Source: Clostridia bacterium | GTDB lineage: Bacteria; Bacillota; Clostridia; Oscillospirales; CAG-272 | Assembly (NCBI GenBank): GCA_017441005.1 | Contig: JAFSAM010000054.1 | Location: forward strand, 1 to 35,463 | Reading direction: 5' to 3' | Length of the DNA: 35,463 bases | Part shown: positions 6,486-34,354 of the stretch, piece by piece | How the letters are laid out: every line of letters begins with the position of its first letter | How positions within the stretch are numbered: position 1 is the stretch's first letter | The notes under the pieces: generated by a model | The model's database searches: none | Seen by the model: the letters and a program-made list of their open reading frames with translations, nothing else | What the model was told of the DNA's origin: nothing | Program-made: the position numbers and the translations under genes

Positions 6486-6562
6486 CGGGGTGTGGCACAG
6501 TTTGGTAGTGCGCATGGTTCGGGTCCATGAGGCCGCTGGTTCGAATCCAGTCACTCCGACCA
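6486..6562 (+). tRNA. tRNA-Pro (anticodon CGG)
   Basis: Full cloverleaf of 77 nt with encoded CCA. Acceptor CGGGGTG/CACTCCG (one G-T pair), D-stem GCAC/GTGC, anticodon stem CATGG/CCATG with loop TTCGGGT giving CGG, T-stem and loop GCTGG-TTCGAAT-CCAGT, discriminator A then CCA. It is a single gene with its own promoter and terminator. Its 3' 29 bases recur 250 bp downstream. Confidence 0.97.
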
Positions 6563-6850: not shown

Positions 6851-6854
6851 CAAC

Positions 6855-7020
6855 TAAATCCACCCTTGCGGGTGGGTGAAATCGTCTTCGACGATGAAAT
6901 CCAACTTCATTGGATGAAATCCGCCTCGACGGCGGATGGGTGGATTTAATTTCATCTGAGGCAAAGCCGAAGATTTCATCAGCTTTGGCTGATTTCATCC
7001 TTGCGTCAGCAAGGATTTCA
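6855..7020. repeat. Tandem hairpin array 2 (ATC...GAT stems, GAA/TTC linkers)
   Basis: Seven hairpins stand in a row: CCACCC/GGGTGG (6860-6875), ATCGTC/GACGAT (6881-6895), ATCCAA/TTGGAT (6899-6915), ATCCGCC/GGCGGAT (6919-6937), ATCTGAGGC/GCCGAAGAT with tandem GA mismatches (about 6954-6974), ATCAGC/GCTGAT and ATCCTTGC/GCAAGGAT (up to 7016). Nearly all stems are closed by ATC and GAT. Linkers read GAA in the left half and TTC in the right half, so the two halves point in opposite directions. Outer arms TAAATCCACCC (6855-6865) and GGGTGGATTTA (6938-6948) pair around the left half. Same architecture as array 1 but other sequences. No gene overlaps. Confidence 0.8.
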
Positions 7021-25038: not shown

Positions 25039-27105
25039 ATGGAAATTGAAATAGCGAAAAATGCAGGCTTTTGCTTTGGTGTTGACAGAGCTGTAAGCAC
25101 AGTATACGGATTGATCGGAAAAGAATCTGCAGGTCAAATATATACCTTGGGGCATTTGATACACAATCCCACCATATCCGGCGATCTTGAAGCCCAAGGG
25201 GTAGGCGTGATTTCCGAAGAGGAACTCGAAAAGGTTTTTTCTTCCTGTGACGGAGACCGTCCCTGTACCGTAGTGGTAAGGGCTCACGGCGTAACATCCG
25301 GGCTGTATGCAAGATTGGAAAAATATGCAGAGAAAAATGAGTTTTTCAATGTGATTGACTGTACCTGTCCTTACGTCAAGAAGATACATAAGATAGTGAC
25401 GGACAATGCCGATAAGGAATCACAGCTTTTCGTATTTGGCGATCCGAATCACCCCGAGGTTAAAGGCATAGTCAGCTTTGCCGAGGGCGACGTTGAGGTG
25501 TTTTCGAGTGCCGATGCACTTGAGGAAAGACTGAAAATTCATAAAAGTGCACAAAAAAAGTCGGTAATGGTGTCCCAGACAACACAAAAACTGACAGAAT
25601 GGAAAAAATCTCAAAAAATTCTCGAAAAAGTATATACAAATTCATATATTTTTGATACAATATGTAGTGTTACCGAAAATCGGCAGAAGGAGACGGAAAA
25701 ACTGGCTCAGAAAGTTGATTTTATGGTTATCATAGGGGGCAGAAACAGCTCCAACACCAACAAGCTTTACGAGACAGCAAAAAGGCATCAACCGAACACC
25801 GTCTTGGTTGAGAATGCTTCAGAGCTTCCCAATAGGCTTGATGGAAAAATAAAAAAAGTTGGTATATCTGCCGGTGCATCGACGCCGGGCAGTATCATAC
25901 AGGAGGTAAAAAACAAAATGAGCGAAATCACACAGAACATCGAAAAGGACTTGACTCAGGAGTCTTTTGAAATCAACGATGAAAACAGCTTTGCTGCAAT
26001 GCTTGAGGAATCTTTCAAAACTTTAAATACAGGTGAGATAGTTAAGGGAATCGTACTTGCTGTTAACTCTAACGAAGTACAGGTAGACCTTGGCGCTAAG
26101 GTAACCGGCATTGTACCTTACAGTGAAGTTTCCGAGAATCCCGCTGCTAAGCTCGAGGACGAGTTTAAGGTAGGCGACGAGATCGAAGTAATGGTAACCA
26201 GAGTTAGTGATATAGACGGTGTTGCATCCCTTTCCAAGAAGAGAGTTGATGCTATTACCAACTGGAAGAACGTTGTTGAAGCGTTCAACGAGGGCAAGGT
26301 TCTCGAGGGTAAGGTAACTGACGTTATCAGAGGCGGCGTACTTGTACTCGCTTTGGGTCAGAAGCTTTTCGTTCCCGCGTCCCACACAGGTCTTGCAAAG
26401 GATGCAGATCTTTCTGTTCTCAGAGGTACCGAGCACAAGGTTAAGATCATCGACATCAATGAGCAGAGAAAGAGAGCTGTTGCTTCTATCCGCGTAGTTG
26501 CAAGAGAAGAAAAGAAGGCTGCAGAGGAAGCATTCTGGGCAAGCATCGAAAAGGATAAGAAATACGAGGGCGTTGTTAAGTCTATTACAAACTACGGCGT
26601 ATTCGTAGACCTCGGCGGTGTTGATGGCATGATCCACAGCACAGAGCTTGCTTGGACACACTTCAAGCATCCTTCCGAAATCGTATCCATCGGAGAAACA
26701 CTTAACGTATACGTAAAGGATTTCGATGCTGAAGCAAAGAGAATCTCTCTCGGCTACAAGACAGAGGAAAACAACCCTTGGAATGCATTTGTTGAGAAGT
26801 ATGCAGTAGGCGACGTTGCTACCGTTAAGGTAGTAAACATGATGCCCTTCGGTGCATTTGCAGAAGTTCTCCCCGGTGTTGACGGTCTTATCCATATTTC
26901 CCAGATCGCTGACAAGAAGATCAACAAGCCCGCTGATGTTCTTTCCATCGGTCAGGAGGTTGACGCAAAGATCACAGACATCGATATGGAAAATCATAAG
27001 ATCAGCCTTTCTGTAAGAGCGCTTATCGAAGAGGCTAAGGCGGCTGAAGAGGCTATGCCCGAGGATTACATACCCGACGAGCAGAAGACAGAGGACGCTG
27101 AATAA
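25039..27105 (+). CDS. ispH: IspH - ribosomal protein S1 fusion
   Basis: 688 residues. Residues 1-290 are 4-hydroxy-3-methylbut-2-enyl diphosphate reductase, with the three iron-sulfur cysteines C12 (AGFCFGVDRA), C110 (DCTCPYV) and C209 (TICSVTENRQ), the last step of the MEP isoprenoid pathway. Residues about 330-680 hold four S1 RNA-binding domains (for example YEGVVKSITNYGVFVDLGG and ATVKVVNMMPFGAFAEVLPG). This fusion is known from Clostridia. A Shine-Dalgarno and ATG within the junction (25901-25920) could give a separate S1 product of 395 residues. The S1 half uses codons typical of highly expressed genes, more so than the IspH half. The start has only a weak GGTGA element. Confidence 0.96.
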   Translation: MEIEIAKNAGFCFGVDRAVSTVYGLIGKESAGQIYTLGHLIHNPTISGDLEAQGVGVISEEELEKVFSSCDGDRPCTVVVRAHGVTSGLYARLEKYAEKNEFFNVIDCTCPYVKKIHKIVTDNADKESQLFVFGDPNHPEVKGIVSFAEGDVEVFSSADALEERLKIHKSAQKKSVMVSQTTQKLTEWKKSQKILEKVYTNSYIFDTICSVTENRQKETEKLAQKVDFMVIIGGRNSSNTNKLYETAKRHQPNTVLVENASELPNRLDGKIKKVGISAGASTPGSIIQEVKNKMSEITQNIEKDLTQESFEINDENSFAAMLEESFKTLNTGEIVKGIVLAVNSNEVQVDLGAKVTGIVPYSEVSENPAAKLEDEFKVGDEIEVMVTRVSDIDGVASLSKKRVDAITNWKNVVEAFNEGKVLEGKVTDVIRGGVLVLALGQKLFVPASHTGLAKDADLSVLRGTEHKVKIIDINEQRKRAVASIRVVAREEKKAAEEAFWASIEKDKKYEGVVKSITNYGVFVDLGGVDGMIHSTELAWTHFKHPSEIVSIGETLNVYVKDFDAEAKRISLGYKTEENNPWNAFVEKYAVGDVATVKVVNMMPFGAFAEVLPGVDGLIHISQIADKKINKPADVLSIGQEVDAKITDIDMENHKISLSVRALIEEAKAAEEAMPEDYIPDEQKTEDAE
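25901..25920 (+). promoter_or_regulatory. Possible internal ribosome site at the IspH/S1 junction
   Basis: AGGAGG (25901-25906) stands 11 bases before an in-frame ATG (25918) that opens MSEITQNIEKDL, exactly where IspH homology ends and the S1 linker begins. The same bases encode the conserved IspH tail QEV, so coincidence is possible. Confidence 0.4.
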
Positions 27106-27150
27106 TTTTGTATATAGATGCCCCAATACGGGGAATTTAATATAAAACCA

Positions 27151-27200
27151 AGGCGCAATAGCCGTTCTTGAACAGGAGCGGTTATTGCGCTTGTTTTCTA
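27151..27200 (+). terminator. Terminator of the purD - ispH operon
   Basis: 14-bp stem (27151-27164 with 27179-27192, two G-T pairs) around GCGCAATAGCCG, followed by GTTTTCTAT. A smaller CCCC-AATAC-GGGG hairpin precedes it at about 27121-27133. Confidence 0.8.
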
Positions 27201-27289
27201 TATAAAAAAGGTGATTTAAAGCGTGTTTACTCCATAAAAAGTTTTTGAACGATTATTCAAGTATTATTAAAGAAAAATGGTAAAAACTA

Positions 27290-27318
27290 TTGACGGAAGG
27301 GGGCATAAAGTATATAAT
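27290..27318 (+). promoter_or_regulatory. Promoter of the potABCD operon
   Basis: TTGACG (27290-27295), 17 bases, TATAAT (27313-27318). Predicted start about 27325, which leaves a leader near 370 nt. Confidence 0.8.
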
Positions 27319-27324
27319 ATATTA

Positions 27325-27693
27325 TTGTACACGAATTATAAAATAAATAGACGATTTTTGCATCTGTGCCAACATTTTTGTCAAAAGCAAAGGTTTGACA
27401 AAATCTATCATCACCTTTGACCAACAGGGGCTGTACGTGTGATTAATGCCGAGGGAGAGGGCAGGATGTACATATCAGGGCAGTTCTTAACAGGAGCCGT
27501 TTCCGACTTTAAAAATCGGATTGAGAAACCGAATGCTGCAGTTATGTTTAAGCCGTTTTGATTTAACGCAAGATTGGCGTATATATAGCTGTAACAAACT
27601 CTTTGCGGGGGCATCGGTTAGCCCGATATGGGGTTCGCGCAGAGCTTAGACAGAAGCTGTACGCGGTCTTTACCGCAAAGGGGGATGCAAAAA
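27325..27693 (+). promoter_or_regulatory. Structured potA leader, candidate riboregulator
   Basis: No reading frame is supported. Visible pairings: TTTTGTCAAA/TTTGACAAAA (27376-27385, 27394-27403), whose loop CAAAGG (27388-27393) is complementary to CCTTTG (27414-27419), an H-type pseudoknot; TGTAC/GTACA (27432-27436, 27468-27472) enclosing TGCC/GGCA; TCCGA/TCGGA (27502-27520); ATCGG/CCGAT (27613-27627); AGCTT/AAGCT (27643-27658). Next to the Shine-Dalgarno AAAGGGGG (27677-27684) two helices exclude each other: the local GCGGT/ACCGC (27663-27667, 27672-27676) and the long-range CTTTGCGG/CCGCAAAG (27601-27608, 27673-27680), which covers the first half of the Shine-Dalgarno. That is the layout of a translational switch. 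It matches no riboswitch consensus I can recall. Confidence 0.6.
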
Positions 27694-28815
27694 ATGAGCA
27701 ATAATAATATCATTGAATTGAAGAACATCACCGTGGAGTTTGATGGCGAAAAGGTGCTTGACGATCTTAACTTGTCTATAAAGGACAAGGAGTTTGTTAC
27801 GCTTTTGGGGCAGTCGGGGTGCGGAAAAACTACCACCCTCAGAATAATTGCCGGCTTTATCCAACCGCAGACGGGCGATGTTTTTTTTGACGGAAAATCG
27901 GAGCTTGGTATACCGCCTCATAAGAGACCGGTCAATACCGTTTTCCAGAGATATGCTTTGTTTCCGAATTATAATGTTTACGATAACATTGCGTTCGGTC
28001 TTCGCGTAAGTAAGGTGCCGAAGAAGGAGATCGATGAACGTGTAAAGGCAATGCTGAAGCTTGTCAACCTTGAGGGCTTTGAGAAGAGAAGCATAACCAA
28101 GCTTTCGGGCGGTCAGCAGCAGAGAGTTGCGATCGCGAGAGCGGTAATCAATCAGCCCAAGGTGCTTTTGCTTGACGAGCCGTTGGCGGCGCTCGACCTT
28201 AAGCTGCGTAAGGATATGCAGAACGAGCTTAAAAACATTCAGAAAAAGCTGGGTATCACTTTTATATACGTAACTCACGATCAGGAGGAGGCACTGTCTC
28301 TTTCCGATACCGTTGTCGTTATGCATGAGGGTAAGATCCAGCAGATAGGTACGCCTATCGATATATATAACGAGCCGGAGAACGCTTTTGTAGCCGACTT
28401 CATCGGTGAATCAAACATCATTGACGGCATTATGAAGGCAGACTATAAGGTGGCATTGGTCGGAAAGACGTTTGACTGCCTTGACAAGGGCTTTGAGCAC
28501 AACGAACCGGTTGACGTTGTTATCCGTCCCGAGGACGTTGATATCGTTCCCGTGGAAAAGGGAATGCTTGTAGGTGAAGTGACCTCTGTTCTTTTCAGAG
28601 GAGTTCACTATGAGATAATCATAGACGTTGAGGGCTTCAAATGGATGATACAGACCACCGATGAAAGCAAGGTGGGCGACAAAGTTGGTCTTTATATCGA
28701 GCCCGATGCGATCCACGTAATGAAGAAATCAAAGTATTCGGGTAAATACGGCGACTACAGCTCATACAGTGACGAGATGGACAGAATGAGCGACGTAAAT
28801 GAGGTAGAAGAATGA
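27694..28815 (+). CDS. potA: Spermidine/putrescine ABC transporter ATP-binding protein
   Basis: 373 residues. Walker [11 protein letters not shown]-loop region [19 protein letters not shown], signature [14 protein letters not shown], Walker [13 protein letters not shown] and H-loop VTHDQEEA form a complete ABC ATPase, with a C-terminal TOBE domain (about 270-350) as in PotA and other CUT1-type importers. It energises the PotB/PotC channel. The ATG at 27694 follows AAAGGGGG; an in-frame ATG at 27685 touches that element and a start at 27628 lies within leader structure. The last codons overlap potB by four bases. Confidence 0.95.
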
Positions 28816-29636
28816 AGAAACGCAGATACGGAGTATTGGCGTTGAATTCTCCCTATGTATTGTGGTCGGCAATATTTATAATAGTGCCTCTGTTCATAGT
28901 GGGTTATTATTCTTTTGTAGACGCCAACGGAAACTTTTCTGTCGATAATTTTATAGAGATCTTTAAGCGAAAAGATTATTTGAATCCAATGCTGCGAGCA
29001 TTGTGGTATTCTGTAGTGGCGACAGTGATCGCACTTTTGATCAGCTATCCTTTTGCATATTTTTTGAGCAAACAGTGCGGTATGTCGCAGAGAATACAAA
29101 TGGCTCTTATAATGGTCCCGATGCTTACAAACCTTGTAATCAGGACATATTCGTGGGCGAATATACTTGAATACAACGGACTTATCAACAAATTTCTGGG
29201 ATTGTTTGGCATTGAACCCCTTACTATGATGGGCACGTCGGGGGCTGTAATATTCGGTATGGTTTATAACTATCTGCCGTATATGATCTTGCCTATTTAT
29301 ACGGTAATGAGCAAAATAGACCCCTCGTTGCTTGAAGCTGCAGAGGATCTTGGCTGCAATGGCTGGAATAAGCTGAGAAGGGTGATCATACCGCTCAGTT
29401 TGCCGGGGGTAATTTCAGGCATAACTATGGTATTTGTTCCCAGCATCAGCACGTTCTATATCAGCCAAAAGCTGTCGGACGAAAAGCTGATCGGTGACGT
29501 AATATACAATGAAATGCAGGAATATCATAATTTCAATATGGGCGCATCCTTGTCCTTTGTTTTGATGGTGTTTATTTTTGCGAGTATGCTGATAATGAAC
29601 AAGCTCTCGGATGAAGACGGAGGTGTTGTTCTGTGA
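28812..29636 (+). CDS. potB: Spermidine/putrescine ABC transporter permease PotB
   Basis: 274 residues with six membrane segments. The EAA loop that contacts the ATPase is [20 protein letters not shown] (about 175-195) followed by LSLPGVISG. The N-terminus [20 protein letters not shown] matches PotB and PotH permeases. Starts by an ATGA overlap with potA and ends by a GTGA overlap with potC, so the four proteins are made from one message with coupled translation. Confidence 0.94.
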
Positions 29637-30445
29637 AGACCTTCGGTAGAATTTTCAACGGGTGTGTATATCTCCTGTTATATGCTCCTTTGATCATAAT
29701 GGTGGTATTCAGCTTTAACAGTGCAAAGAGCACAAACGTTTTTGCGGGCTTCTCTTTAAAATGGTATAAGGAGTTTTTCAATGATCCCTATATAATGGAG
29801 GCATTGGGAAACACTCTTGTTCTTGCATTTTTGTCGGCGATTATTGCGACAGTTCTCGGAACGATCGCGGCTGTGGGAATGTACAAACTCAGAAACCGCT
29901 ATTTGTACGGAACTATGAATATGGTTACCAATATTCCTATGATGAATCCCGATATCATCACGGGTGTTGCTTTCATGCTTTTGTTTATGTTCGTCGGCAG
30001 AGAGATTCTCGGGTTAAATGAGGTTGTTGGATTTGTTCCCGTTCTCATTGCGCACGTAACGTTTAACTTACCTTACGTTATTTTAAACGTATTGCCGAAG
30101 CTCAGACAGACAGACGAGCATTTGTATGAGGCGGCATTGGATCTTGGCTGTACACCGATTAAAGCGTTTTTTAAGGTGATGCTTCCCGCAATAATGCCCG
30201 GTATCGTGTCGGGAGCGATGATGGCATTTACCTTGTCTATTGATGATTTTGTTATTTCATATTTTACGGCAGGTACCGAATACAATACGTTGCCGATCTT
30301 GCTTTACAATCAGACCAAGCACGCGATGAAGCCTGATATGTATGCATTGGCATCGATTTTGTTTATTAGTATATTGGTGTTGCTTGTTTTGATAAACGTA
30401 TTCCAGGAAATTTCCGACAGAAAGACGAAAGGAGTCAGAAAATGA
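29633..30445 (+). CDS. potC: Spermidine/putrescine ABC transporter permease PotC
   Basis: 270 residues with six membrane segments; EAA loop in YEAALDLGCTPIKAFFKVML followed by PAIMPG. The N-terminal YLLLYAPLIIMVVFSFNSAK is typical of PotC/PotI. Begins with GTG in a four-base overlap with the potB stop and ends in an ATGA overlap with potD. Confidence 0.94.
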   Translation: MKTFGRIFNGCVYLLLYAPLIIMVVFSFNSAKSTNVFAGFSLKWYKEFFNDPYIMEALGNTLVLAFLSAIIATVLGTIAAVGMYKLRNRYLYGTMNMVTNIPMMNPDIITGVAFMLLFMFVGREILGLNEVVGFVPVLIAHVTFNLPYVILNVLPKLRQTDEHLYEAALDLGCTPIKAFFKVMLPAIMPGIVSGAMMAFTLSIDDFVISYFTAGTEYNTLPILLYNQTKHAMKPDMYALASILFISILVLLVLINVFQEISDRKTKGVRK

Positions 30446-31548
30446 AAAAGATTATAGCAGTTTTGCTTGTATTGATAATGGCTGTTTCTTGTGTAGCTAT
30501 GACGTCTTGCGGTGAGGTAAACGATACCGTAGAGGTAGAAGGCACTTACACAAGAGACTATGAAGGAACAACACTAAAGGTATATAACTGGGGCGAATAT
30601 ATCTCCGACGGCGGTGAGGGCTCGCTTCACGTAAACAAGGCTTTTGAAAAGCTTACCGGAATAAAAGTAGTATACAGCACCTTTGACAGTAACGAGGTTA
30701 TGTACGGTAAGATCAAGCAGGGGGCTGAAGCGTTCGATATAATTATCCCCTCGGATTATATGATTGAGAGATTGATCAACGAAGACCGTTTGCAGAAGAT
30801 CGACGTGTCAAAGCTCAGCAATTATAAGTATATTGACGAGCAGTATAAGAATCTTTATTTTGATGAAAACAATGAATACTCCGTTCCTTACAACGTAGGA
30901 ATGGTTGGTCTTATATACAATGAGACAATGGTCAAAGAAGCACCTACAAGCTGGAGTGTAATGTGGGATGAGCAGTATAAGGATCAGATCTTGACTTTTG
31001 ACAACCCGAGAGATGCTTTTGCTATATGCCAGTTCTTGCTCGGTATTGACTTGAATACCACAGATACGGCAGAGTGGGACAGAGTTGCCGAGAAGTTCAA
31101 GGAACAGAAGAAGATCCTCCAGGCAAGAGTAATGGATATGGTCTTCAACAAGATGGAGGGCGGCAACGCAGCTATCGCGCCTTACTATGCTGGCGACTAT
31201 CTCACGATGGCAGAAAACAATCCCGATCTTAAGTTTGTATATCCCGAAGAGGGAACAAATATATTTGTTGACTCCATTTGCATTCCCAAGAACGCAAATA
31301 ACTATGAGGCGGCAATGCTGTATATCAACTTCCTGCTTGAGCCCGAGGTTGCTTTGGCGAATGCAGAGTATATCAGATATGCTTCTCCCAATACCGGCGT
31401 ATTGAATCACGAGGATTATTCTTTGAAGGACAATGAGATCCTTTATCCTTCGGAAGATAAAATGCCGAAAACACAGTATTTCCACGACCTCGATCCTGTT
31501 GTAAGAGAGTATTATCAGGATTTGTGGAAGAAGATAGTAAATGAATAA
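30442..31548 (+). CDS. potD: Spermidine/putrescine-binding lipoprotein PotD
   Basis: 368 residues. Lipoprotein signal with lipobox MTSC (C23), then a type II periplasmic-type binding fold: LKVYNWGEYISDG near the N-terminus, FDIIIPSDYMIERLI, YSVPYNVGMVGLIYNE and the C-terminal LLEPEVALANAEYIRYASPN are the PotD/PotF pattern. Anchored outside the membrane, it delivers polyamine to PotBC. Acidic and aromatic positions that bind the amines in PotD (for example W of YNWGEY and the aspartates of PSDYMI) are present. Followed directly by a strong terminator. Confidence 0.95.
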   Translation: MKKIIAVLLVLIMAVSCVAMTSCGEVNDTVEVEGTYTRDYEGTTLKVYNWGEYISDGGEGSLHVNKAFEKLTGIKVVYSTFDSNEVMYGKIKQGAEAFDIIIPSDYMIERLINEDRLQKIDVSKLSNYKYIDEQYKNLYFDENNEYSVPYNVGMVGLIYNETMVKEAPTSWSVMWDEQYKDQILTFDNPRDAFAICQFLLGIDLNTTDTAEWDRVAEKFKEQKKILQARVMDMVFNKMEGGNAAIAPYYAGDYLTMAENNPDLKFVYPEEGTNIFVDSICIPKNANNYEAAMLYINFLLEPEVALANAEYIRYASPNTGVLNHEDYSLKDNEILYPSEDKMPKTQYFHDLDPVVREYYQDLWKKIVNE

Positions 31549-32542: not shown

Positions 32543-34354
32543 ATGAAATACATAGACGAAAAATTTAAGGACAACAGTCCCGAGCGTACAGTCGAGGAGA
32601 TAGCAACAAGACTGAAAGGCATCGGCATTGAACTGATCGAAGAGTGGAACGATTCGGGCGTTGAAAACTGTCATAGTCTGCGTGTAAGCACGGGAAATTA
32701 CGGTCCCGGAACAAACGGCAAGGGGGTTACACGCGCATTTGCAAGAGCGAGTGGCTACGGCGAGTTTATCGAAAGATTGCAGAGCGGACTGTTTTTCTAT
32801 AAATATCAGTCGTTTGAGTGCGATCCCGAGGTCAATCTGCAGACTTATGCTCCCGATGGCAGGTATTTTACTGTTGAAGAGCTTGAAAAAAATGCCGAGT
32901 GGTTTGATTATTTGACAAAAGAATACGGCATAACACGCAAGTCTCTGGCAGAGCAGTGCAAGATGTATGCCCATACCGATGACGGAAATGTTCTTTGTAT
33001 TCCTTTTTACAGTGTTTTTGAAGATAAGTATGTCTATATGCCCGCCGGTTTTATTGAGGCAATGTATTCGGCAAATGGATGCTGTGTCGGAAATACCCGC
33101 GAGGAGGCATTGGTGCACGCTTTGGCAGAAATAATGGAAAGAAAAGCAAGCATTGATGCAATAGCAAACGGCAAGTCATTTCCCGAAATTCCCGATGACG
33201 TACTTTCAAAATTCCCGGTCGTAAGCAACATTTTGAGACAGATCCGTGAGAGCGATGATTTTCACGTAAGCATATTCGACTGCTCGATCGGAAACGGTTT
33301 TCCCGTTGTAAGCACAAGGATAATCGACAAAAAGAATCATAAATATGCTGTAAACTATGCCGCCGACCCCGTTTTGGAAATAGCCGTACAGCGAAGCTTG
33401 ACAGAGATTTTCCAGGGCAGACAGCTCAAAGATTTTGGCAAGAACCGAACAAGCGAGATCCTCGTAAGTGCCGACGAAAAGCGCAAGGCGACAAATGTGA
33501 TCAATCAGCTTGAAAATGGCAGCGGAAGCTTTACGGTAGATTATTTTGCAAACGAGCTTACTTGCGACAGAGAGGCTACAAGCTTTGAGGACAACAGCGG
33601 ACTTACCAATAAACAGCTTTTGGAAAAGATGTATGAGCTGTACCGCCGGCTTGGAAAGCCTTTGTATATAAGAAACTGCGCATTTTTGGGATTCCCTTGT
33701 TACAAAGTAATAGTTCCCGGTTTTTCCGAATCAAGAGGAATGAGGCTGACCGAGAGTATACAGGAATATGCTTTGGGCGATACGGTAAGCAAGATATTGC
33801 GCGATCCCGAGTCAGTAAGCGATGATGATCTGAACATCATGTTTATGTTTGAAGGACTGATTAGCGATATATTTAGCAGAAGAAATAATTTTGCTTTTCT
33901 TGCGGGACTTCCGCTTGACAGTAAAAAGTCGTTTTTCCTTTGGACCGTTACCAGGGCGTATTGCGCTTACCGAACAAAATCGGCGGACCGACTTAAAATG
34001 TGTTTGAAGACTTTAAGGGATTATGAATCTTTTGCAGAAGAAGACAGACAGTATTTTTCGTGTGTCGACAGATATTTTGGTATGAGACACAAAGGTGTCG
34101 ACAAAGAAAAAATATATTGTATACTCAAAAAGTTTTATCACGAAAAATACGTTGATAAATTAAAAGTATTATTGGAAAACGGCAAAACTCCGTTTGATGA
34201 GTATATTTTGAAATGCGACGGAAGAAACTGCAGTGGTTGCCGATATAAAGAATTCTGCGGATATGAAACCGCAAGAAAGGTAATAAGGGCGGCGGGAAAG
34301 GTTTATTCCGAATTCAAGGACGGTCAAAGCAAAGATAATTTTATAATTCCGTAA
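32543..34354 (+). CDS. ycaO: Stand-alone YcaO-domain protein, E. coli YcaO-like
   Basis: 603 residues. The three ATP/Mg-binding motifs of YcaO enzymes are present: NGKGVTRAFARASGYGEFIE (58-77), EALVHALAEIMERKASID (188-205) and VQRSLTEIFQGRQ (282-294). YcaO enzymes use ATP to activate peptide amide bonds (cyclodehydration, thioamidation). Length and the order NGKG...GEFIER...GNTREEA...TELLQGR-like resemble E. coli YcaO, which has been linked to RimO-dependent modification of ribosomal protein S12. The last 50 residues hold C-x4-C-x2-C-x5-C (558-572) near the C-terminus, a possible metal or iron-sulfur site. No precursor peptide, dehydrogenase or TfuA gene is adjacent. Start ATG with GGGAG ten bases before. 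Confidence 0.9.
   Translation: MKYIDEKFKDNSPERTVEEIATRLKGIGIELIEEWNDSGVENCHSLRVSTGNYGPGTNGKGVTRAFARASGYGEFIERLQSGLFFYKYQSFECDPEVNLQTYAPDGRYFTVEELEKNAEWFDYLTKEYGITRKSLAEQCKMYAHTDDGNVLCIPFYSVFEDKYVYMPAGFIEAMYSANGCCVGNTREEALVHALAEIMERKASIDAIANGKSFPEIPDDVLSKFPVVSNILRQIRESDDFHVSIFDCSIGNGFPVVSTRIIDKKNHKYAVNYAADPVLEIAVQRSLTEIFQGRQLKDFGKNRTSEILVSADEKRKATNVINQLENGSGSFTVDYFANELTCDREATSFEDNSGLTNKQLLEKMYELYRRLGKPLYIRNCAFLGFPCYKVIVPGFSESRGMRLTESIQEYALGDTVSKILRDPESVSDDDLNIMFMFEGLISDIFSRRNNFAFLAGLPLDSKKSFFLWTVTRAYCAYRTKSADRLKMCLKTLRDYESFAEEDRQYFSCVDRYFGMRHKGVDKEKIYCILKKFYHEKYVDKLKVLLENGKTPFDEYILKCDGRNCSGCRYKEFCGYETARKVIRAAGKVYSEFKDGQSKDNFIIP

Follow-up and report, generated by a model that had tools for sequence, protein, structure and literature searches.

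The stretch of DNA analysed here (the window, 35,463 nt from a Clostridia bacterium; GTDB Oscillospirales, CAG-272) carries a potABCD operon with a long predicted leader RNA in front of potA, which raises the question of how synthesis of the importer is controlled and whether the leader might be a riboswitch that answers to a polyamine. The four genes of the operon were assigned as follows.

27694..28815, + strand: potA; NF043075, 557.8 bits, above its cut-off of 550; start codon at 27694
28812..29636, + strand: potB-like permease gene; PF00528, top NCBIfam model PotB, under its cut-off
29633..30445, + strand: potC-like permease gene; PF00528, top NCBIfam models spermidine/putrescine permeases, under their cut-offs
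30442..31548, + strand: potD-like gene for a substrate-binding protein; top match 4gl0 (Lmo0810 protein), next 4eqb, 8y5h and 1pot

By these matches, potABCD (27694-31548) is a polyamine-type ABC importer. Three of the structures resembling the window's PotD (4eqb, 8y5h and 1pot) are solved spermidine/putrescine-binding proteins, and for PotB, PotC and PotD the spermidine/putrescine models scored highest; as all three proteins fell below the NCBIfam equivalog cut-offs, the transported amine is uncertain. No match to AdoMet decarboxylase was found in the window's genome (94.35% complete), and speE and nspC gave nothing over their cut-offs there, with matches only far below them, so that the organism probably takes its spermidine from import and depends on it. 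The potA frame is open upstream as far as an ATG at 27628 (27628-27693), with a further in-frame ATG at 27685; the start was taken as 27694 because the equivalent upstream ATG in a homologue (L011) meets a stop. The gene preceding the leader encodes a fused LytB (IspH) and S1 repeat protein (25039-27105), and a YcaO-domain protein (PF02624) is encoded at 32543-34354, about 1 kb downstream of potD.

Two features define the region in front of potA.

27290..27318, + strand: predicted sigma-70-type promoter, TTGACG-17-TATAAT, 11/12 consensus
27325..27693, + strand: structured leader RNA, running from the predicted start of transcription up to the last base ahead of the potA start codon; conserved among homologous leaders of potA

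The promoter sets the predicted transcript start near 27325, in agreement with the original prediction, and hence gives a leader of about 369 nt; promoter-like sites numbered five in this region against 1.8 expected. The only terminator-like site between 27080 and 27760 was at 27151-27192, behind the preceding gene, and none was present in the leader, so that any control would be translational. When 27325-27720 was folded, the energy was -112.7 kcal/mol compared to a mean of -97.2 for shuffled sequences (z -2.32), and 3 of 100 shuffles were as good. The earlier description, a structure at the ribosome-binding site in front of a polyamine-type importer, holds, with PotA over its cut-off and PotD matched by structures. 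It had also assigned the leader to no known class, and the scans it called for bear this out. With Rfam 15 at the gathering score, the whole window gave no match in the leader, only a tRNA and a Gut-1 RNA elsewhere; a scan of 27000-28000 at E values up to 10 gave nothing credible in the leader, nor did scans at E up to 10 of two divergent homologues (L120 and L054), and at the gathering score there was no leader match in 18 loci, made up of 17 homologues (including L120) and an unrelated viral match, L218. The tRNA lies at 6486-6559 and the Gut-1 RNA (RF01706, 72.9 bits) at 6851-6925.

The fold predicted for the leader consists of the following elements, in window coordinates.

27355..27364, + strand: P1 5′ strand TTTTTGCATC, complementary to 27684-27693; pairing probability in the window 0.92
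27376..27403, + strand: PX hairpin, stem 27376-27385/27394-27403 (10 bp), loop with GCAAAG at 27387-27392; the stem covaries
27409..27412, + strand: PY 5′ strand CATC, weak in the window
27465..27468, + strand: PY 3′ strand GATG, weak in the window
27471..27476, + strand: P2 5′ strand CATATC, partner 27625-27630
27527..27536, + strand: 5′ strand of the crossing helix P3, AACCGAATGC, partner 27611-27619, A27533 bulged
27539..27547, + strand: P4 5′ strand, partner 27583-27591
27583..27591, + strand: P4 3′ strand, partner 27539-27547; paired and varying in alignments A4 and A5 (below)
27601..27608, + strand: P5 5′ strand CTTTGCGG, partner 27673-27680; invariant in A5
27611..27619, + strand: P3 3′ strand GCATCGGTT, starting, in both A4 and A5, 2 nt past the 5′ strand of P5
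27625..27630, + strand: P2 3′ strand GATATG, partner 27471-27476
27635..27666, + strand: P6 hairpin, 27635-27639/27662-27666 and 27643-27646/27655-27658
27663..27676, + strand: alternative hairpin GCGGT (27663-27667)/ACCGC (27672-27676), exclusive with P5 and P6
27673..27680, + strand: P5 3′ strand CCGCAAAG, partner 27601-27608; invariant in A5
27677..27684, + strand: Shine-Dalgarno sequence AAAGGGGG, between P5 and P1, overlapping both where P5 ends and P1 begins
27684..27693, + strand: P1 3′ strand GATGCAAAAA, ending at the AUG

P1 encloses all the other helices and ends at the AUG, and the predicted helix order, in which the nested P2 and P3 cross P5, is that of an H-type pseudoknot. The linker before P5 is A-rich with invariant bases. 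Long-range P1, P2, the crossing P3, P4 and PY were all absent from the original prediction.

How widely the leader occurs was determined by three kinds of search. At the DNA level the leader was matched in 15 of 97 relatives, compared to potD, which was present in 70 of 95 genomes; since so many relatives have potD and lack the leader, it looks like an optional layer of control. Two covariance models were then used, R1, covering the 3′ part of the leader and built from 11 leaders, and a broader one, R2, built from 28. R1 matched 58 of 395 genomes of the family, with one copy per genome, and 21 of 394 of the order; R2 matched 9 of 391 genomes of the class, and among 299 genomes of the phylum its sole match was the window's own genome. 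Behind the motif, potA was found in 71 of 72 R1 loci (L024-L095), a check that covered the family matches other than three of the 58 (G033, G044 and G053), the exception being L083, in which just 167 nt of DNA follow the motif; the same was true of all five class matches (L096-L100). When R2 was run on 295 genomes of the order it returned 29 rows, of which the best 19 lay before potA and the weakest ten, at E values of 6.4e-4 and above, did not. One model match (L084, 562-612) was judged to be due to chance. The third search used a sequence pattern, P5 plus GATGCA, that is blind to gene context; it found at least 117 stretches in named genomes, where by our own estimate about one chance match would be expected in the collection. 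Downstream of the pattern (tblastn, next 1.3 kb) potA was present in 115 of the 117 matches listed, and in 113 of those 115 the aligned piece of potA begins within 60 nt. Of the two others listed, L207 is on a contig that ends 9 nt past the motif, and L159 (Paenibacillus), with no potA and no P1 strand found, is probably a chance match. A viral match (L218) was dropped, since neither a potA gene within 1.3 kb nor a P1 strand could be found. The locus sets of the pattern and of the models overlap, so the counts are not additive. A promoter-like pair was located ahead of the P1 strand in 95 of 107 pattern-found homologues, compared to 7.4% in shuffled sequence, with a median distance of 16 nt from the end of the pair to GCATCT.

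By their titles, the pattern matches listed include Caproiciproducens (Acutalibacteraceae), Gemmiger formicilis (Oscillospiraceae in NCBI), Anaeromassilibacillus, Clostridium minihomine and records called Lachnospiraceae, and many come from gut or rumen assemblies. Inspection by eye revealed a distinct subtype (L119, L123, L150, L157 and L214) that has in common CATAAAAGCGG and a stretch GGTTAT..GAATAAC..GACACGCA within the same P1/P5 frame; L119 and L123 are from records titled Lachnospiraceae. A Gemmiger-like subtype (L130, L181, L202, L205 and L211), likewise recognised by eye, carries TGACACATTGGCGTTG between P1 and P3, and close variants of this stretch were seen in L115, L149, L200 and L212. 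Leaders ranged from 152 to 197 nt in the short type (alignment A4) and from 268 to 421 nt in A5, and the minimal form is about 155-160 nt, as in L120 and L129 (Caproiciproducens) and L179 (Clostridium minihomine). Eleven regions upstream of potA, taken from genomes outside the set of matches, were also read (300 nt each), and none had the leader; a twelfth region (L230) gave no potA match, and at least three of the genomes behind the 11 may fall outside the model searches.

Conservation of the helices was assessed in two alignments. A5 contained 41 of the 53 available family leaders, aligned by sequence with MAFFT, the 12 left out being near duplicates by eye (L025, L046, L047 and L080) or carriers of long inserts (L088-L095); A4 contained 21 of 49 short leaders, from which Gemmiger-type, Lachnospiraceae-type and several single leaders that did not look alignable were omitted. 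Over 59 pairs, 88.8% of the cells in A5 were paired, against 82.6% (sd 0.4) in shuffled alignments and 41.2-49.0% in versions in which the structure was slid along the alignment, a comparison that favours the real version, because each structure was derived from the top row of its alignment. Changes on both sides of a pair were found at 25 pairs, in 177 cells, compared to 65.6 (sd 7.3) after shuffling, a value reached in 0 of 500 shuffles; since the rows are related, such counts are not probabilities, and the slid controls retain that relatedness. In A4, 10 of the 15 pairs of P2 and P3 had changed on both sides, with 42 cells against 15.5 (sd 3.2) in shuffles and 0 of 500 reaching this number.

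Taken singly, the helices behaved differently. Both-side changes were seen in 7 of 9 pairs of P3 in A5 and 4 of 7 in A4, in 5 of the 7 pairs counted for P4 (68.3% of cells paired in A5, 92.1% in A4) and in all nine pairs of PX in the main run (72.9% of cells paired, A5). For P2, 89.4% of the cells were paired in A5 and 3 of 6 pairs had changed on both sides; its columns are partly gapped, so that 27 and 36 of the 41 rows were set aside at two of the six pairs. When leaders were tested with their own and with swapped partners, the mean P2 helix was 7.2 bp compared to 5.6 (6 against 5.2 for the window), and the family mean for PY was 7.2 against 5.5 bp, the window itself showing the reverse (4 against 4.9). 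The corresponding test for P3, done on best local complements, found the window's own strand to be no better than others, 78% of swaps being as good; this test is noisy because many leaders have similar P3 strands, and the column counts were relied on instead. P6 was paired in 98.5% and 99.4% of cells in A5, with one-sided variation only. P5 (CTTTGCGG/CCGCAAAG) was invariant in 41 of 41 leaders of A5, which bears out the 8-bp helix predicted near the start codon, and a compensatory form with three compensatory changes, CTTTGTCA/TGACAAAG, occurs in two leaders of one genus (L064 and L099). In A4, P5 is fixed by the pattern selection; counts for P5 or for the GATGCA of P1 in pattern-selected loci are uninformative, as the pattern fixes both. 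P1 was paired in 97.8% of cells in A5, 8 of its 10 pairs never vary and no clear compensatory change was seen. GCATCT was present upstream in 107 of the 114 loci with room for it, against 7.9% of shuffles, and three of the seven loci lacking it (L102, L172 and L196) have GCATTT, which would still pair through G-U. A possible compensatory change of P1 in L233 was not counted, the strand lying, by eye, upstream of the promoter-like site of that locus. P1 and P5 hardly vary, so that the case for them is made more by conservation and complementarity than by covariation. The alignments of homologous potA leaders thus show the leader to be conserved, with covariation in the predicted helices P2, P3, P4 and PX and, within the family, in PY.

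The original prediction had placed an H-type pseudoknot elsewhere, between the loop of the 10-bp hairpin and a site downstream. The hairpin, our PX, is supported by the covariation of its stem, but the pseudoknot was given up: CAAAGG (27388-27393) and CCTTTG (27414-27419) are present in the window, yet among the 41 aligned leaders the window alone can form the whole pairing, and a search made without any alignment turned up a perfect complement in just one of 39, so that neither test showed conservation. The GCAAAG in the same loop was kept in 39 of 41 family leaders, compared to 2.4% of shuffles, and we infer that it may be a second possible partner for the CTTTGC of P5. This pairing has complementarity without covariation and a probability of 0.00 in the nested fold, and only 1 of 21 short-type leaders has GCAAAG before P5.

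In the nested fold of the window, P1, P4, P5 and P6 had probabilities of 0.91-1.00, with P5 at 1.00, and each base of the Shine-Dalgarno sequence was unpaired with a probability of 0.16 or less. P2, P3 and PY had a probability of 0.00; a nested fold can contain P5 or P2/P3, not both. With P2 and P3 forced, the nested optimum was -107.1 compared to -112.7 kcal/mol, P5 was lost and GCGGT/ACCGC formed, which indicates that P5 and GCGGT/ACCGC are in real competition in the window. This hairpin had been predicted as the exclusive alternative to the helix covering the Shine-Dalgarno sequence. It is indeed kept in the window's family, where 99.0% of the cells are paired, nearly without variation, but it did not rise above shuffles (56 of 500 were as good) and no such pairing was seen in any of the 21 short-type leaders of A4. 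The probabilities of 0.00 for P2 and P3 against 1.00 for P5 might also mean that P2/P3 and P5 are alternatives rather than parts of one pseudoknot formed simultaneously. In both alignments P5 (5′ strand) and P3 (3′ strand) are 2 nt apart, a spacing that would suit coaxial stacking within a single pseudoknot.

We therefore distinguish the RNA from the switch proposed for it. Judged by comparison of its homologues, the leader forms a new class of conserved RNA, our confidence being strong as to its conservation and moderate as to its mechanism. Two marks of a riboswitch were found, a 5′ leader structure backed by covariation and a steady link to one gene, potA. In the mechanism that we propose, P2/P3, P5 and P1 would form simultaneously as a pseudoknot, ribosomes would be blocked at the Shine-Dalgarno sequence between P5 and P1, and a small molecule would stabilise this blocking state. 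From the nature of the operon, the ligand would be a polyamine such as spermidine or putrescine, and its binding would turn the importer off, repression of an importer by its own substrate being the simplest logic. In the ligand-free state, CCGCAAAG would be freed, in the window's family, through the GCGGT/ACCGC hairpin or through pairing of CTTTGC with the GCAAAG of the PX loop. On this model, we consider it fairly probable that the pseudoknot hides the potA ribosome-binding site and that polyamine binding shuts off synthesis of the importer.

The leader could instead be a riboswitch whose ligand is not a polyamine; candidates would be Mg2+, a guanidino compound, or a signal of nitrogen or translation linked to the need for polyamines. 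A polyamine is indicated by gene association only, with PotD below its equivalog cut-off, and as the leader is attached to one gene there is no second gene to narrow the ligand; against this, an importer operon that is regulated alone most simply answers to what it imports, and no other class of gene was attached in the strong matches examined, so that we regard a different ligand as unlikely. Structure close to the start codon would equally suit control by a protein that binds the leader and closes or exposes the ribosome-binding site, with no small molecule bound directly; such a protein might be a regulator that responds to polyamines, or PotA itself. Ribosomal protein leaders are protein-controlled leaders of this kind, structured near the start codon. 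The size of the potA leader, its crossing helices and the invariant bases of the A-rich linker before P5 are more like an aptamer, and protein control seems to us rather improbable. It is very unlikely that the structure does not switch at all and serves mRNA stability or a constitutively low rate of translation: its nested ground state does hide the Shine-Dalgarno sequence and the alternative pairings are not universal, but the many specific bases and crossing helices that are conserved exceed the needs of a simple occluding hairpin, and related potA genes manage without any leader. Attenuation by an upstream reading frame is hardly credible, for although the window has a 31-residue frame that begins with an ATG at 27466, preceded by GGCAGG, in a leader of the same genus (L004) only the first nine residues are common before the frame diverges, while base pairing is kept, and the leader has no terminator-like site.

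The polyamine-responsive off switch proposed here can be set beside known systems. SAM-II and preQ1-II are translational riboswitches in which an H-type pseudoknot has its second stem at the Shine-Dalgarno sequence. The leader would work like them in outline, but it is much larger, is enclosed by the long-range P1 and has no Rfam match to either. The potC motif is a candidate element ahead of a gene whose annotation places it in a polyamine importer. The leader likewise precedes an importer gene, but the model for that motif (RF01751), which is listed as marine only in PMC2864571, had no match in the leader or in the 18 loci. The potE motif (WRC-18-1) is described, in PMC8632094, as lying before a putrescine transporter gene in Veillonella and environmental sequences only, with weak covariation support, about 200 nt from the gene and with no obvious expression platform; by that description it is distinct from the leader, which has strong covariation, ends at the start codon and precedes potA of an ABC importer in clostridial-titled records, not potE in Veillonella. 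The spermidine riboswitch is a variant of the SAM-I aptamer that, according to PMC10853860, acts on biosynthesis genes by transcription termination, no definitive spermidine class having been shown before it. It and the leader are both bacterial cis elements at polyamine genes, and off logic is expected here too. The leader, however, stands before importer genes and lacks a terminator-like site; the SAM families of Rfam gave no match at E up to 10 in the window's leader, L120 or L054, and none at the gathering score in the 18 loci (17 homologues and the viral L218). The leader RNA was not described in the literature searched, which was made up mostly of papers open without subscription and included passages of PMC10043782, PMC7266159, PMC8632094, PMC11109978, PMC2864571, PMC6429828 and PMC11477304.

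Polyamine riboswitches have long been sought. We see about an even chance that this leader represents the first class of polyamine-sensing riboswitch with a scaffold of its own, distinct from SAM-I, a large pseudoknotted translational off switch that would control polyamine import across Clostridia, here in a genome that seems to have no genes for making spermidine. If so, RNA would have a second route to read polyamines, through an architecture unlike SAM-I and in several clostridial families, and the leader would offer a handle on polyamine uptake by gut bacteria.
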